DNA of 64,000 nucleotides from Nanobdellati archaeon (GTDB taxonomy: Archaea; B1Sed10-29; JAGVWA01): positions 1 through 64,000 of the forward strand of contig JAGVWA010000001.1 of assembly GCA_018304505.1 (NCBI GenBank), in the 5' to 3' direction. Under the pieces are notes generated by a model. That model was given only the letters and a program-made list of their open reading frames with translations. It was not told where the DNA came from and did not search any database. Made by a program: the position numbers and the translations under genes. This document shows, in pieces, positions 55,129 to 61,230 of the stretch (position 1 is the stretch's first letter; each line of letters opens with the position of its first letter).

Positions 55129-55680
55129 ATGAAAGTAATGAAAGGTTTATTGTTACTGCTTCTTGTGCTGTTAGCCGTGGCTGCGGGATGCGTGCAACCC
55201 GCAAGCACCCAAAAAACAGCTCCTGGCGACAACATTAGCTACGGCCCTGATAACTGGCGGAACATCGAAGTCACTGATGTCACTACTGGAGAAACATTCA
55301 CGCTGAGCGACTTCAGTGGCCAATACTTGCTCATCGAAACCTTCGCAGTGTGGTGCCCAACCTGCCTAAGCCAACAGATAGAAATCGCGAAGATGCGGCA
55401 AAGCAGTGATGATCCGGCATTGCATTTTTCGCTTGACGTTGACCCAAGCGAAGACGAGAACCGAGTTAGGGAACACCTGGAGAGGTATAGCTTTGACTGG
55501 GTTTTCGTTGTAGCTCCAAGGGAAATGTCGCAGTCACTTGTTGACGAATTCGGCGTAACTATCGTTAATGCACCAAGCGCCCCAATGATCCTAATGTGCC
55601 CTGACGGATCTGCACGGCTCTTGAGAACCGGCGTGAAGCCAGCAGGCGAACTGGCAAGCGAAATAGAAAAAGGCTGCTGA
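55129..55680 (+). CDS. TlpA/ResA-like thioredoxin lipoprotein
   Basis: A 183-residue exported thioredoxin. A basic start and Leu-rich signal end in a lipobox-like VAAGC, with C21 as possible lipid anchor. The mature domain has the active site WCPTC (C76, C79) and a later VNAPSAPMIL cis-Pro region. It should keep extracytoplasmic thiols reduced with electrons from the CcdA protein encoded 10 nt downstream. It is the first gene of the island. Confidence 0.85.
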   Translation: MKVMKGLLLLLLVLLAVAAGCVQPASTQKTAPGDNISYGPDNWRNIEVTDVTTGETFTLSDFSGQYLLIETFAVWCPTCLSQQIEIAKMRQSSDDPALHFSLDVDPSEDENRVREHLERYSFDWVFVVAPREMSQSLVDEFGVTIVNAPSAPMILMCPDGSARLLRTGVKPAGELASEIEKGC

Positions 55681-55690
55681 TGATGATATC

Positions 55691-56368
55691 ATGGTGAATT
55701 TTTTAGTTGACATAACGACATCATTCATACTGGGCTTGCTGACGCCAACAACAGCAGCATGTGTATTACCATTGTATCCTGGATTCCTGGTTTATTTAAC
55801 AGCGGCGCTTGGCGAGAAGTCAAACAAAAAACGGCTGGCCACCTTTGGCTTGGTCATCAGCAGCGGCGTTGTTGTGTTCATGCTTCTCCTTGGCCTGATT
55901 TTCAGCACCATTCTCCAAGTTTCACTAACAAACGTCATAGGCATCGTGTCGCCCATCGCGTTCTTTATCCTACTAATAATTAGCCTGTTGCTGATTTTCG
56001 ACATCGACATTGGCAGCAAGTTGCCGAGAATCGCTACGCCAAGAACCAAAAATCCATTAGCACATGCTTTCATTTATGGTTTCTTTTTCGGCGCCATTGT
56101 CGTGCCATGCAATCCGGCTTTCATCGCAGCAATGCTAGCCCGGACTGCAGCTGTAATGAACTTTATCGCCAATGTATTCAACTTCTTGGCTTTTGGGGTT
56201 GGAATGGCTGCGCCCCTAATAGCGTTTTCCCTGCTATCAACAACAAAAACGCAATCGATAATAACCTTCTTGGCAAAGAACACGCGCAAGATAAACTTAG
56301 CGTCAGGTTTAATAATGCTCGGCGTTTCTGTTTACTACCTGGTATTCGTATTCCGTGTGCTTGGGTAA
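55691..56368 (+). CDS. ccdA: CcdA-type thiol-reductant carrier (normal order)
   Basis: A 225-residue six-helix protein of the CcdA/DsbD-beta family. Helix 1 carries TPTTAACVLPLYPGFLVYL (Cys where the usual motif is PCVLPL, with Ala replacing Pro) and helix 4 carries IVVPCNPAFIAAML. It passes electrons from cytoplasmic thioredoxin to the lipoprotein encoded just upstream. This gene keeps the standard helix order and so serves as the internal control for the permuted copy at 57822. Confidence 0.88.
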   Translation: MVNFLVDITTSFILGLLTPTTAACVLPLYPGFLVYLTAALGEKSNKKRLATFGLVISSGVVVFMLLLGLIFSTILQVSLTNVIGIVSPIAFFILLIISLLLIFDIDIGSKLPRIATPRTKNPLAHAFIYGFFFGAIVVPCNPAFIAAMLARTAAVMNFIANVFNFLAFGVGMAAPLIAFSLLSTTKTQSIITFLAKNTRKINLASGLIMLGVSVYYLVFVFRVLG

Positions 56369-56386
56369 TAATTATAGGGGGATAAC

Positions 56387-56767
56387 ATGAATTTAATGAA
56401 ACAGTATGAAGACACATCGAAAAAAATCTCGCGGGAGAGCTACAGGCTCCTGATTAGCGGAAAATTCATCGCAGTATTCGCCATCGGCGCAATGCTGAGC
56501 AGGCAACTGTTCCTGTACGCGTATTTCATAATGATGGCGTCAGTGCTTCTCGTTTTGGCTTACACGCAGATCAGCCTTGTACATTGGCATGGAAATCAAA
56601 AAACGCCATACAAGACGCATGTGATAGGCAGCCTCGGTGCCATGTTGCTTGTGCTATTCTTCGGAATCCAATCTCCACAAATGCCCTACCCGATATATGT
56701 CCTCCTGCTAGGGGTTCTATTCGGCATTCCCGCGTTACGCGACATTCTAAACCGGAGTAAAAAATGA
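56387..56767 (+). CDS. Small membrane protein of the thiol-redox operon
   Basis: A 126-residue protein with three or four hydrophobic helices (SGKFIAVFAIGAMLSRQ, LYAYFIMMASVLLVLAY, HVIGSLGAMLLVLFFGI, IYVLLLGVLFGIP) and no Cys. No family is recognised. It starts 18 nt after ccdA and overlaps the DUF3179 gene by 4 bp (ATGA), so it belongs to the operon. Confidence 0.65.
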   Translation: MNLMKQYEDTSKKISRESYRLLISGKFIAVFAIGAMLSRQLFLYAYFIMMASVLLVLAYTQISLVHWHGNQKTPYKTHVIGSLGAMLLVLFFGIQSPQMPYPIYVLLLGVLFGIPALRDILNRSKK

Positions 56768-57816
56768 AAGCATGGATACTACTCACTATTATCCTGCTAT
56801 CGTCGGCTTGCGTAGCTCCAACAACGGGAGAACCGACCTACCCAAGCTTGCCTGAAGGCATACCCCCCGTGTTTGACAATGACATAAGCACGCCGGGAGA
56901 CGTTGACATGCCGACAGACACGTCAATTATGAATGAGCGCGTAAGGCAAGACGAAATCAAGATCACGGGGCGCGGAGTAAAATACTTAATCGAGCCGAGC
57001 AAAATCATGAGCGGCGGGCCACCAAAAGACGGCATACCAAGCATTGACAACCCGAAGTTCATCTCGGTGGAAGAAGCAGACAAATGGATACAAGACAACG
57101 AACTGATACTCGCAATCATACACAAAGGCGTCACGCGGGTTTACCCGTTGCAGATACTGGTGTGGCATGAAATAGTCAATGACGAAATCGCCGGGGACCC
57201 ATTGCTTATTACATACTGCCCGCTATGCGGCTCGGGAATCGCCTTTGAAGGGAAAATCGACGGCCAGCGCGTAGAGTTTGGCACATCTGGAAAATTGTAC
57301 AACTCAAACCTGGTGATGTATGACCGGAAAACCGATTCTTACTGGACACAAATAGATGGCCTAGCAGTCGTTGGGCCATTGGCAGGGACGAAATTAAAAC
57401 CAGTATCCATAGACACGGTTTCATGGCGAGACTGGAAAGCCGCACACCCAGATTCACAGGTGTTATCACAAGACACTGGCCACGCACGGCCATATGGCGT
57501 CGATCCTTACGGCAACTACTATGAAGACAGCTTCTTGCTGTTTCCAGTCGAGAACTCTGACGACCGGATACACCCAAAGACCCAAGTATTCGGAATCGAA
57601 ATAAACGGTGTATACAAGGCTTACAAGGAAGACGACTTAAAAGAACTTGGAACAATTACCGACAGGGTAAACAACGTCAACATCAAACTAGAAAGAATGA
57701 GCGATGGCAGGGTCAGCGTAACCAATACAGACGCGGGCGAGGAGATTGTGAAAGAAGTTGACTTCTGGTTCGCGTGGTACGCCTTCCACCCAACAACAGG
57801 ACTATACGAAAGGTGA
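56764..57816 (+). CDS. Exported DUF3179 protein
   Basis: A 350-residue protein with a signal peptide and possible lipobox (LLSSACVAP). It belongs to DUF3179: DNPKFISVEEADKWI, IIHKGVTRVYPLQILVWHEIVND, the double-Cys motif TYCPLCGSGIAFEGK, TSGKLYNSNLVMYDR and SYWTQIDG-AV are all family landmarks. Function is unknown. The CPLC pair could be a redox or metal site that depends on the thiol carriers encoded beside it. Overlaps the previous gene by 4 bp. Confidence 0.88.
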   Translation: MKAWILLTIILLSSACVAPTTGEPTYPSLPEGIPPVFDNDISTPGDVDMPTDTSIMNERVRQDEIKITGRGVKYLIEPSKIMSGGPPKDGIPSIDNPKFISVEEADKWIQDNELILAIIHKGVTRVYPLQILVWHEIVNDEIAGDPLLITYCPLCGSGIAFEGKIDGQRVEFGTSGKLYNSNLVMYDRKTDSYWTQIDGLAVVGPLAGTKLKPVSIDTVSWRDWKAAHPDSQVLSQDTGHARPYGVDPYGNYYEDSFLLFPVENSDDRIHPKTQVFGIEINGVYKAYKEDDLKELGTITDRVNNVNIKLERMSDGRVSVTNTDAGEEIVKEVDFWFAWYAFHPTTGLYER

Positions 57817-57821
57817 TTTGG

Positions 57822-58586
57822 ATGACAAAGAAAATTCAACAAAAGCGCGATCAAAAAAAGCGAGACTGGAACCTATTCATTAACAGCATGTTCTTCGTCT
57901 TAGGCTTCTCAGTAATATTCTCCATACTCGGCGTGTTGCTACAGAGCACGCTTTCAAGCGCGTCTTACGAAATCCAACTCTGGCTTGGCCGCATCGGAGG
58001 CACTGTAATCATCTTGTTCGGCATCTACCTACTCGGATTAATCCGAATTCCATTACTTGAACAGGAACACAAGTTCCAGATCAAAAGAAAATTCAAGTAT
58101 TCCTACCTAACGAGTTTTGTTTTCGGCGCAGCATTCGCCGTGGGCTGGACACCATGCGTCGGGCCGATACTCGGCGCGATCCTGGGCTTGGCAGTAACGC
58201 AACCAGGAACAGCATTCTTGCTAATGCTTTCCTATTCATTGGGCTTAGGAATCCCATTCCTCGTCGTAGGCTTGTTTGGGGATGAAGCAAAACGATTTGT
58301 GCAAACACCACCAAGGTGGCTCGGATACCTTAACACCGTATTCGCCATATTATTGATACTGTTAGGCATTCTGGTTTTCACGAACATGCTCAATCTAATT
58401 GCGAGTTTTCCGTTGGCTTCCAAAATCCTCTTAGACCTTCAAGTCGCAACAGCTGTCACGTCTAGCACTTTGAACATTGGCATTGCCTTCTTTGCTGGCC
58501 TTGTATCATTCTTGAGCCCCTGCGTTCTACCGTTAATTCCAGCATTCCTAGCCTACTTGGCAAGCACTGGTGCGAAAAAACGATGA
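57822..58586 (+). CDS. Circularly permuted CcdA-like protein
   Basis: A 254-residue CcdA-family membrane protein whose first helix is at the wrong end. It opens with what is helix 2 in normal CcdA (FFVLGFSVIFSILGV, residues 24-38), continues through helix 4 with GWTPCVGPILGAIL (C112), and ends with NIGIAFFAGLVSF and LSPCVLPLIPAFLAYL (C234), the usual helix 1. Both Pro-Cys sites are intact. A GTG and an ATG upstream in frame add no helix. It overlaps the next gene, a DipZ-like thioredoxin, by 4 bp. Confidence 0.85.
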   Translation: MTKKIQQKRDQKKRDWNLFINSMFFVLGFSVIFSILGVLLQSTLSSASYEIQLWLGRIGGTVIILFGIYLLGLIRIPLLEQEHKFQIKRKFKYSYLTSFVFGAAFAVGWTPCVGPILGAILGLAVTQPGTAFLLMLSYSLGLGIPFLVVGLFGDEAKRFVQTPPRWLGYLNTVFAILLILLGILVFTNMLNLIASFPLASKILLDLQVATAVTSSTLNIGIAFFAGLVSFLSPCVLPLIPAFLAYLASTGAKKR

Positions 58587-59686
58587 TAAGCGACACAGTT
58601 AAATTGGCATTCATAGTTATCCTCATAATCGGAACTATATCCTACTTAGAAGCAACAAAATCTAAGATCGTTCCAATAACAGCAATCGGCCCAGACGGGG
58701 GAGATTTGTTGAAAGAAATGATGTACAAAAAAGCGCCCGAACTGGTTGGCATTTCAGGTTACCTCAACACAGACGAAAAAGAAATCAAAATTAGCGACTA
58801 CAAAGGAAAAGTAGTACTGATCGACTTCTGGACTTACACATGCATTAACTGCATCCGGACACTGCCGCACTTGACAGAGTGGGACCGCAAGTATCGTGAC
58901 CAAGGACTCGTCATCATTGGAGTGCATACGCCAGAATTCGCGTTCGAGAAAATCCGCGAGAATGTTGAAAACGCTATACATGAACACAACATAGAATACG
59001 CTGTGGTGCAAGACAACGACTATGCTACGTGGAGGGCCTTCCAGAACAGGTTCTGGCCGCACAAGTTCCTGATAGACAAAGACGGCTTCATTCGTTATGA
59101 CCACATTGGCGAGGGAGCCTATGAAGAAACCGAAAGACAAATCCAGTTGCTGTTATCCGAAACAGGGGCAGAAACAGAAGGCATGAATCTAACGGGTCTG
59201 AAAGACGAGACCCCCCGCGTGCTATTGACCCCTGAATTGTATGCAGGCTACAATTTCGCTATCCCACGGGGGCAAAACATTGGCAATCCAGGGGGCATGA
59301 AGCCCGGACAAACAATAAAGTACGAACTGCCTGCCACGGTAAGGAAAGACATTATTTACTTAAAAGGAACGTGGCTCAGCAATCCAGATGACCTACATGC
59401 CCAGGATTCAGAAGGTGCCGAGATCGTACTTGATTTTACTGCCAGCAAAGTCAACATAGTAGCAGATTCTGTAAACGGCCCGCTCGAATTAGAAGTACTC
59501 ATCAACGACGCGCCTGCAACACAAACACAACTCGGTAGCGACGTGCAAATCATTGGCGGCAAGGCCATCATGACCGTTGACAGACCCAGATTATACAACG
59601 TCATCAACGGAGAATATGGAAACTACAAACTGACACTGAGGGCAACTAACACGAACTTTATTTTCAGCGCCTTCACGTTCGGGTAA
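58583..59686 (+). CDS. Membrane-anchored DipZ-like thioredoxin
   Basis: A 367-residue protein with an N-terminal anchor helix (LAFIVILIIGTISYL), a thioredoxin domain with active site CINC (C87, C90 in FWTYTCINCIRTLPHL), and a C-terminal beta-rich domain of about 150 residues (from GYNFAIPRGQNIG). This matches the C-terminal half of mycobacterial DipZ, in which CcdA, thioredoxin and a carbohydrate-binding-like domain are fused. Here the CcdA part is the separate, permuted gene upstream, coupled by ATGA. Confidence 0.88.
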   Translation: MISDTVKLAFIVILIIGTISYLEATKSKIVPITAIGPDGGDLLKEMMYKKAPELVGISGYLNTDEKEIKISDYKGKVVLIDFWTYTCINCIRTLPHLTEWDRKYRDQGLVIIGVHTPEFAFEKIRENVENAIHEHNIEYAVVQDNDYATWRAFQNRFWPHKFLIDKDGFIRYDHIGEGAYEETERQIQLLLSETGAETEGMNLTGLKDETPRVLLTPELYAGYNFAIPRGQNIGNPGGMKPGQTIKYELPATVRKDIIYLKGTWLSNPDDLHAQDSEGAEIVLDFTASKVNIVADSVNGPLELEVLINDAPATQTQLGSDVQIIGGKAIMTVDRPRLYNVINGEYGNYKLTLRATNTNFIFSAFTFG

Positions 59687-59710
59687 ATTACTTATACAAC
59701 AACACACATA

Positions 59711-60166
59711 ATGAAGAGCATGAAGCTAACAAGCAACGCGTTTCAACACAACGGAAACATTCCGGAAAAATACACCTGCGAAGGCGCCAACGTGTCTCCG
59801 CAACTCGAAATCTCGCAAGTGCCGGAAAACACAAAGACTCTGGCGCTGATTATGGACGACCCTGACGCCCCTGCGGGCACGTGGGACCACTGGGTATTGT
59901 TCAATATGCCAGCAAACACAACCTCAATACCAGAAGGCACCGAGCCACAAGGCATTCCTGGCAAGAACTCATGGGGAAAAACCGGCTACGGAGGGCCATG
60001 CCCACCAGACAGGGAACACAGGTACTTCTTCAAGCTCTACGCACTAGACGCTGAACTTGACTTGCATAATGGGACCGCAAAATCGCAGTTAGAACGCTCA
60101 ATGCAAGGCCACATACTCACAAAGACAGAACTGATTGGCAAGTACAACAAGAAAGCTAATAGATGA
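59711..60166 (+). CDS. YbhB/PEBP family protein
   Basis: A 151-residue phosphatidylethanolamine-binding-protein homologue: NGNIPEKYTCEGANVSPQL, then LALIMDDPDAPAGTWDHWV with the ligand-pocket Asp-Pro-Asp, and GYGGPCPPDREHRYFFKLYAL. The bacterial/archaeal members have no settled role. No signal peptide is seen. It overlaps the next gene by 4 bp (ATGA). Confidence 0.92.
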   Translation: MKSMKLTSNAFQHNGNIPEKYTCEGANVSPQLEISQVPENTKTLALIMDDPDAPAGTWDHWVLFNMPANTTSIPEGTEPQGIPGKNSWGKTGYGGPCPPDREHRYFFKLYALDAELDLHNGTAKSQLERSMQGHILTKTELIGKYNKKANR

Positions 60167-61230
60167 CTTACCGAAATGATCAAATGAACAAGACAATTAG
60201 CGTCCTCGCGCTTCTACTGCTTGCACTGGTTTTTCTGGTGCTTCCAAAGCCGGTCCAGGAAAAGGGTTTCGAAACGCAAGTAGTGCTTGAAAGCCTAGAC
60301 ACTGTCTGGAGCATCGATTTTCTTCCAGATGACACGATGATTTTCACAGAGCGCCCGGGCCGAGTCAACTTGTACGACATGCGCGAGAAGAAAATCATTG
60401 CCACAATCCAAATCAAGGAGACCGCAGAATCCGGCTTGCACGGAGTCGCTGTTGACCCAGAGCACAGTGAAAACCGCCACATATACCTCTATTACGGCTA
60501 CGACGACAACAGGGGAGTGACGAACCGGGTTTCACGATACACATTAAACAACAATGAACTTCTTGATGAAACCATTCTCGTTGACGGCATTCCGGGCGCG
60601 CAGATTCACGACGGGGGCCGTTTGAAGTTTGGGCCTGACGGCAAGCTCTACGTAACAACTGGCGATGCAGGCATTCCTGATTTGGCGCAGGACACAAATT
60701 CAGTAGCGGGAAAAGTACTGCGGATGAACAAAGACGGCAGTGTGCCTGAAGACAATCCATTTGGAAACTTAGTCTGGAGTTACGGCCACAGGAACCCACA
60801 GGGCATTGCGTTTCACCCCACAACCGGAATCTTGTTTGAGTCAGAGCACGGGCCATCAATGCACGACGAAGTCAACATCATACAGCCAGGGAGAAATTAC
60901 GGTTGGCCAACCACGTGCGGCAATGAATTGCCTGGACACGAGAAACCGATAGCTTGTTACCCTGACTTCACTATCGCGCCTGGGAGCATAGCGATTTTCG
61001 ATAAATTTATTTTCATTCCAGGGCTACGGGGAAACCAGCTGCGTAAATTGGCCCTGGCTGATGACTACAAAACCGTTATCAGTGAAGAGGCGTTGTTTAC
61101 TGACATCGGCCGGGTCAGGGAGGCGACGGTGCACGATGGCTACTTGTACATTGGAACCAGCAACCGTGATGGCAGGGGCCTGCCTCAGCTGAACGACGAC
61201 AAAATAATAAGAATTAGAATAATAGACTAA
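60163..61230 (+). CDS. Exported glucose/sorbosone dehydrogenase-like protein (PQQ type)
   Basis: A 355-residue beta-propeller of the soluble aldose dehydrogenase family (YliI/Asd-like). A signal peptide (ISVLALLLLALVFLVLP) begins at ATG 60184. Catalytic His lies in GAQIHDGGRLKFGPDG, with further family motifs YGHRNPQGIAFHP, FESEHGPSMHDEVN and PGRNYGWP. Relatives oxidise sugars outside the cytoplasm with PQQ. No PQQ synthesis gene is in the window, so cofactor import or another cofactor must be assumed. Confidence 0.87.
   Translation: MTYRNDQMNKTISVLALLLLALVFLVLPKPVQEKGFETQVVLESLDTVWSIDFLPDDTMIFTERPGRVNLYDMREKKIIATIQIKETAESGLHGVAVDPEHSENRHIYLYYGYDDNRGVTNRVSRYTLNNNELLDETILVDGIPGAQIHDGGRLKFGPDGKLYVTTGDAGIPDLAQDTNSVAGKVLRMNKDGSVPEDNPFGNLVWSYGHRNPQGIAFHPTTGILFESEHGPSMHDEVNIIQPGRNYGWPTTCGNELPGHEKPIACYPDFTIAPGSIAIFDKFIFIPGLRGNQLRKLALADDYKTVISEEALFTDIGRVREATVHDGYLYIGTSNRDGRGLPQLNDDKIIRIRIID

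Follow-up and report, generated by a model that had tools for sequence, protein, structure and literature searches.

A CcdA with its first transmembrane helix moved to the C-terminus: a circularly permuted family of small-genome archaea and Patescibacteria that probably arose more than once

The protein encoded at 57822-58586 of the window, by which we mean the whole 64,000-nucleotide stretch of DNA analysed, is a CcdA whose helices run from TM2 to TM6 and end with TM1. The circular permutation put forward in the original prediction is thereby confirmed, on three counts: the helix order read in the translation, a swapped alignment with the CcdA 5vkv, and a match to a doubled profile. By its sequence the protein is a member of the CcdA family with a helix order outside the family's usual description; the order TM1 to TM6 from the N-terminus is not met, and the two intramembrane cysteines, in TM1 (xPCxLP) and TM4 (xPCxx), are both present, as C234 and C112, and invariant in the alignment of permuted proteins. 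We are confident, short of certainty, that we are dealing with a functional circularly permuted CcdA, a six-helix thiol-disulfide carrier that arose by duplication and did so more than once, where electron transfer is inferred and there are no biochemical data. Natural circular permutations in helical membrane proteins have very rarely been documented, VKOR/DsbB being the only precedent we found. The original prediction knew of no description of a permuted CcdA, and none of a permuted CcdA or DsbD was found in the searchable literature, which leaves out subscription journals; a study of the LysE superfamily that includes DsbD makes no mention of permutation (PMC4608589).

The permuted protein begins MTKKIQQKRDQKKRDWNLF and ends SPCVLPLIPAFLAYLASTGAKKR, and GGTGAT lies upstream of its ATG, at 57812-57817 (features in the table). 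The first motif, FFVLGFSVIFSILG, occupies residues 24-37; it had been placed at 24-38, and the position holds except that the motif stops one residue earlier. TM4 carries its Pro-Cys in GWTPCVG (P111-C112) and TM1 in FFAGLVSFLSPCVLPLIP at residues 223-240 (P233-C234), so that both Pro-Cys motifs can be read intact in the translation, as predicted. The PCVLP helix is indeed the last one, but the stop does not come right after residue 240 as had been stated, because a 14-residue tail, AFLAYLASTGAKKR, intervenes. The tail at the other end would be a remnant of the TM1-TM2 loop side. There is no TM1 hidden upstream of the start, where the DUF3179 gene stands.

Table. Features of the permuted ccdA locus, in coordinates of the window
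Feature	Position	Strand	Details and basis
Thioredoxin-like lipoprotein before the normal CcdA	55129..55680	+	Redoxin
Normally ordered CcdA-like paralogue	55691..56368	+	Frame and family search
DUF3179 protein just upstream	56764..57816	+	E = 9e-99
Permuted ccdA	57822..58586	+	Open reading frame, ATG start; 254 aa, order TM2-TM3-TM4-TM5-TM6-TM1
N-terminal tail MTKKIQQKRDQKKRDWNL, positively charged	57822..57875	+	Predicted cytoplasmic from the positive-inside count over 78 permuted proteins
TM2-TM6 core, residues 19-188	57876..58385	+	Aligns with 5vkv 40-209; Pfam DsbD_TM positions 40-217
TM4 Pro-Cys motif TPCVG (C112)	58149..58163	+	No change at P111 or C112 across 78 permuted proteins
New TM6-TM1 linker, residues 189-216	58386..58469	+	Predicted outside; length fits the old C-tail joined to the old N-terminus
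TM1 moved to the C-terminus, residues 217-249	58470..58568	+	Aligns with 5vkv residues 3-34
TM1 Pro-Cys motif SPCVLP (C234)	58515..58532	+	No change at S232, P233, C234 or P237 across 78 permuted proteins
DipZ-like thioredoxin, TlpA/AhpC-TSA domain with CINC and C-terminal Thioredoxin_10	58583..59686	+	Overlapping start ATGA

Several comparisons place the helices in this order. A phmmer alignment with the CcdA of T. thermophilus (5vkv; E = 4e-35) puts residues 217-248 of the window protein on residues 3-34 of the chain and residues 19-196 on 40-209. The match of Pfam DsbD_TM to residues 14-188 begins only at profile position 40 and so lacks the first helix. PF02683 matches all 78 permuted proteins of our first set, the window protein with 57.2 bits against a cut-off of 27.1. 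We also built a profile from 29 normally ordered relatives and doubled it head to tail, the check originally proposed. The window protein matches the doubled profile in a single stretch (339.6 bits, model 39-275 of 472) and the undoubled one in two pieces in swapped order (285.6 and 49.5 bits); 77 of the 78 permuted proteins, that of the window included, cross the joint in one match, and the mean best match of the permuted proteins rises from 269.5 bits with the single profile to 321.0 with the doubled one. Profile annotation that assumes TM1 first reports such proteins as partial. Set beside the CcdA/DsbD transmembrane domain (PF02683, TC 5.A.1; 5vkv), the window protein shares this sequence similarity, the six helices, the SPCVLP and TPCVG motifs and a thioredoxin-like partner gene; it departs from it in that TM1 comes last, that both ends are predicted to lie inside, and that there is a new TM6-TM1 linker and no TM1-TM2 loop.

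What had been treated as a single odd protein is instead a widespread form, with 83 distinct permuted relatives read (78 in the first set and five later ones, L187, L188, L192, L193 and L198). This recurrence bears on whether an assembly error, a frameshift or an annotation fault has merely joined two gene fragments, the outcome named at the start as the one that would overturn the prediction. Nothing beyond the oddity of the protein speaks for such an artefact, and because the swapped order recurs in 83 distinct relatives from many species, among them one in the one-contig genome G037 and one in the complete genome CP011209.1, and with a conserved neighbour, we regard it as excluded for all practical purposes. 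The CcdA of G037 is 51% identical to the window protein, and after it the swapped order was met in six genomes of the same phylum. Scanning 84,980 species gave 324 relatives, and sorting by helix order showed 66 of the best 80 of these loci to be permuted. Mapping hosts and neighbours, as had been suggested, leads to small-genome archaea and Patescibacteria and to a DipZ-like thioredoxin as the next gene in 60 of 72 loci. The archaeal hosts are Woesearchaeota, other Nanoarchaeota, a Pacearchaeon and a Diapherotrites archaeon, and those in Patescibacteria are Taylor-, Nomura-, Wolfe-, Ryan-, Lipton-, Kaiser-, Sungi- and Staskawiczbacteria, the complete genome CP011209.1 being among the latter; in all these organisms the permuted form of this core redox carrier is common, yet undescribed. 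Normal-order relatives are present in the same phyla. Since the patterns used in the scan derive from the permuted family itself, absence outside these groups cannot be claimed.

Frequencies in genome sets are rough, resting on a match that reaches residue 249 or beyond. Permuted CcdA was counted in about 33 of 371 genomes of the Woesearchaeota phylum, in 6 of 87 of the Diapherotrites phylum, in 8 of 394 archaea and, among 379 Patescibacteria, only in the one used as centre. Two scans of viral contigs gave no relative by criterion; a third, with the TM6-TM1 part as sole query, gave three short TM1 matches whose helix order is unsorted. Plasmid records gave 338 matches, and among the matches listed the ends fall before TM1. 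The plasmid match H1, more than 80% covered, was rejected: it is a normal CDS, and the match extends beyond the CDS end. In the window's own phylum (19 genomes) the permuted gene occurs only in the window's genome, and the window protein is 63-67% identical to proteins from Woesearchaeota. From that identity we infer that gene transfer is likely.

Two features of the permuted loci deserve separate mention. In a permuted subgroup, mostly from Patescibacteria (L069, L075, L078, L082-L095, L097, L098, L102, L111, L113-L115 and L121), the TM4 motif reads GW[TS]PCVS, once with GWTPCVT-type variants, and the others have GWTPCVG; this is a lineage-specific change directly after the TM4 cysteine. A Liptonbacteria contig (L093) carries at 1730-2098 a truncated normal-order CcdA of about 122 aa, covering TM1-TM3, which is followed downstream by a DUF3179 gene and by a permuted ccdA that is intact; another permuted copy, L090, is present in that genome.

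How could one helix have changed ends? Normal-order proteins have on average 25.3 residues between the TM6 motif and the stop and 18.0 between the start and the TM1 Pro-Cys, together 43.3, and the joined stretch from TM6 motif to TM1 Pro-Cys in permuted proteins averages 51.2; the normal TM1-to-TM2 stretch has 38.6 residues versus 43.4 for the two permuted tails summed. These linker and tail lengths agree with a tandem duplication in which the copies fused and the outer parts were lost, in our judgement the most likely route, though an inferred one. A normal ccdA of the DipZ-partner type would first have been duplicated in tandem and in frame, after which the first copy lost TM1 and the second TM2-TM6. 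No tandem, seven-helix or TM1-at-both-ends intermediate was seen among the 159 ORFs sorted; the six ORFs left unsorted have normal order with a changed motif.

To count these events we built trees on the TM2-TM6 core, leaving out the moved helix. They need three order changes in two taxon sets and four in a set with extra archaeal groups, and the starred, well-supported branches alone force at least two, so that there are at least two order changes and probably about four. Deep branches are short and partly weakly supported, and support for the window's clade (A) differs between taxon sets (43/41 with one, 96/87 with another). It is also possible that the permutation had a single origin, with no independent events, and that the normal order was later regained or that the tree misplaces some groups. 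The short deep branches leave room for this, as does the one breakpoint, in the TM1-TM2 loop, common to all permuted members, and constraining clade A together with the Diapherotrites group f29 is not rejected (p-AU 0.20). A single clade of all permuted rows is, however, rejected in both AU tests (p-AU 0.012 and 0.003). The f47 pair nests within normal-order Diapherotrites (support 100/99 and 100/96), and its TM1, which is outside the tree data, agrees, being 69% identical to normal Diapherotrites TM1 and 57-59% to other permuted TM1. A return to the normal order would itself need a second permutation. A single origin thus seems unlikely to us, if not negligibly so, and we favour the reading, with reasonable but not strong assurance, that the single-helix permutation arose independently several times (about four) in small-genome archaea and was passed to Patescibacteria, and that its products are working carriers. 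The five later proteins form two more permuted groups from other archaeal families, one being L187 (genome G915) and the other L188, L192, L193 and L198 (G1168, G977, G961 and G979). This second group forms a clade with full support (100/100), has a TM1 motif of its own, TFLSPCILPLLPAYFSYMAGT, and possibly represents another origin.

The authors of the VKOR/DsbB study call their case the first in which distant helical membrane proteins are related by circular permutation; they propose duplication plus deletion, are unable to say in which direction it went, and suggest that the unit is a pair of helices (PMC4555120). Permuted CcdA is alike in being a naturally permuted membrane thiol-disulfide enzyme for which duplication and outer-helix deletion are proposed. 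In VKOR/DsbB, however, the shift is of two helices, lies between two distant families and is too old for its direction to be told (PMC4555120), whereas in CcdA one helix has shifted within one family, apparently repeatedly, with a predicted flip of both ends. Here identity between the permuted and normal forms exceeds 50%, and the two occur in related organisms. The direction and the joint can be read, and the origins can be counted. If true, repeated permutation would amount to a naturally repeated experiment in membrane-protein refolding.

Normal CcdA, of the DsbD family, has six helices and both ends outside. In the permuted form both ends are predicted to be cytoplasmic, unlike those of normal CcdA, a prediction that rests on charges only, with no topology experiment. 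Averaged over the 78 permuted proteins, lysines plus arginines number 2.9 in the N-terminal segment, 5.4 in TM3-4, 2.3 in TM5-6 and 1.8 in the C-terminal segment, all predicted inside, and 0.3, 0.0 and 1.2 in the loops predicted outside. The two ends would have switched sides because one helix, an odd number, was moved. The original argument that the moved helix 1 keeps its orientation and that both ends share one side was right and can be made more precise: both ends move from outside to inside, in agreement with the charges. One moved helix thus appears to reverse the side of both termini and yet seems to keep the machine, and the family offers a test of how far helix order matters for the insertion and folding of inverted-repeat membrane proteins.

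Whether TM1 sits in its usual seat beside TM4 is supported only indirectly, and the TM1-TM4 contact, being unmeasured, remains an inference. It rests on three things. Both Pro-Cys motifs are invariant in the 78-row alignment. Per-column conservation of TM1 is alike in the permuted and the normal proteins only when the two are compared in register (Spearman 0.82 at shift 0), and the correlation has helical side peaks at +-3/4. Finally, AlphaFold2 with the 78 relatives gives a confident model (pLDDT 81, pTM 0.77, last helix about 81-88), for which Foldseek finds CcdA 5vkv as the sole match with E <= 0.001. The structural match to 5vkv (Z 6.8, rmsd 5.5) covers TM2-TM6 only (model 15-213), because the aligners used are sequential. 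One could imagine instead that the C-terminal TM1 reaches into a neighbouring subunit, the working unit being a domain-swapped oligomer, which the long linker before TM1 (mean about 28 residues) would permit. We think this very improbable, as the joining of the two old ends accounts for that linker length as well and the single chain is predicted with confidence (pTM 0.77; contacts uninspected).

The chain starts at TM2 and the Cys-bearing TM1 comes last; every helix would keep its orientation, and for that reason TM1 and TM4 could still present C234 and C112 to one another. Electrons would most likely pass from cytoplasmic thioredoxin through permuted CcdA to the co-encoded, membrane-anchored DipZ/TlpA-like thioredoxin outside; delivery to such a partner is the most likely function, inferred from motifs and neighbours. 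The partner (AhpC-TSA 57-172, Thioredoxin_10 216-367) is coupled to the permuted gene by the predicted ATGA overlap (ATG at 58583, TGA at 58584-58586). A TlpA/DipZ-like homologue likewise follows close normal-order relatives, the count for permuted loci given above being among those with enough sequence; the f29 protein of G037 is preceded instead by a lipoprotein thioredoxin, and the f47 pair is flanked on either side by thioredoxin genes. A changed job, with a different partner or direction (oxidation or transport in place of TlpA reduction), is conceivable. The archaeal lineages with permuted CcdA are not known to make cytochrome c; the same window holds a second, normal CcdA-thioredoxin pair, and the Diapherotrites f29 group has no DipZ-like neighbour. 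The family moreover belongs to the LysE superfamily, with its varied substrates (PMC4608589). We nevertheless give this reading little credence, since neither Cys-Pro motif varies and the next gene usually encodes a redox-active protein of the thioredoxin fold, as with normal-order relatives.

In DipZ, CcdA, a TlpA-like domain and a C-terminal domain are fused. The window's neighbour has the corresponding thioredoxin and Thioredoxin_10 domains but, unlike DipZ, the locus consists of two separate overlapping genes and is not a single chain. Because its ends are predicted to lie in the cytoplasm, permuted CcdA would not be directly fusable to an outside thioredoxin. The normal-order CcdA noted earlier at about 1.5 kb upstream is there, at a distance of 1.45 kb, and the lipoprotein thioredoxin and normal CcdA form a pair, so that two CcdA types stand side by side in this genome. 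The normal one has an unusual TM1 (TTAACVLPLYP) and TM4 (VVPCNPAF). The DUF3179 protein contains a conserved CPLCGSG stretch, and the gene immediately upstream encodes DUF3179 in 10 of the 78 permuted loci and in 5 of the 57 normal ones, an adjacency that hints at a common redox role on the outside. The same strand carries downstream, at 59711-61230, a PEBP-like protein and a PQQ-type sugar dehydrogenase-like protein, both named by reading the sequence, and the run of outside-redox genes spans 55129 to 61230.
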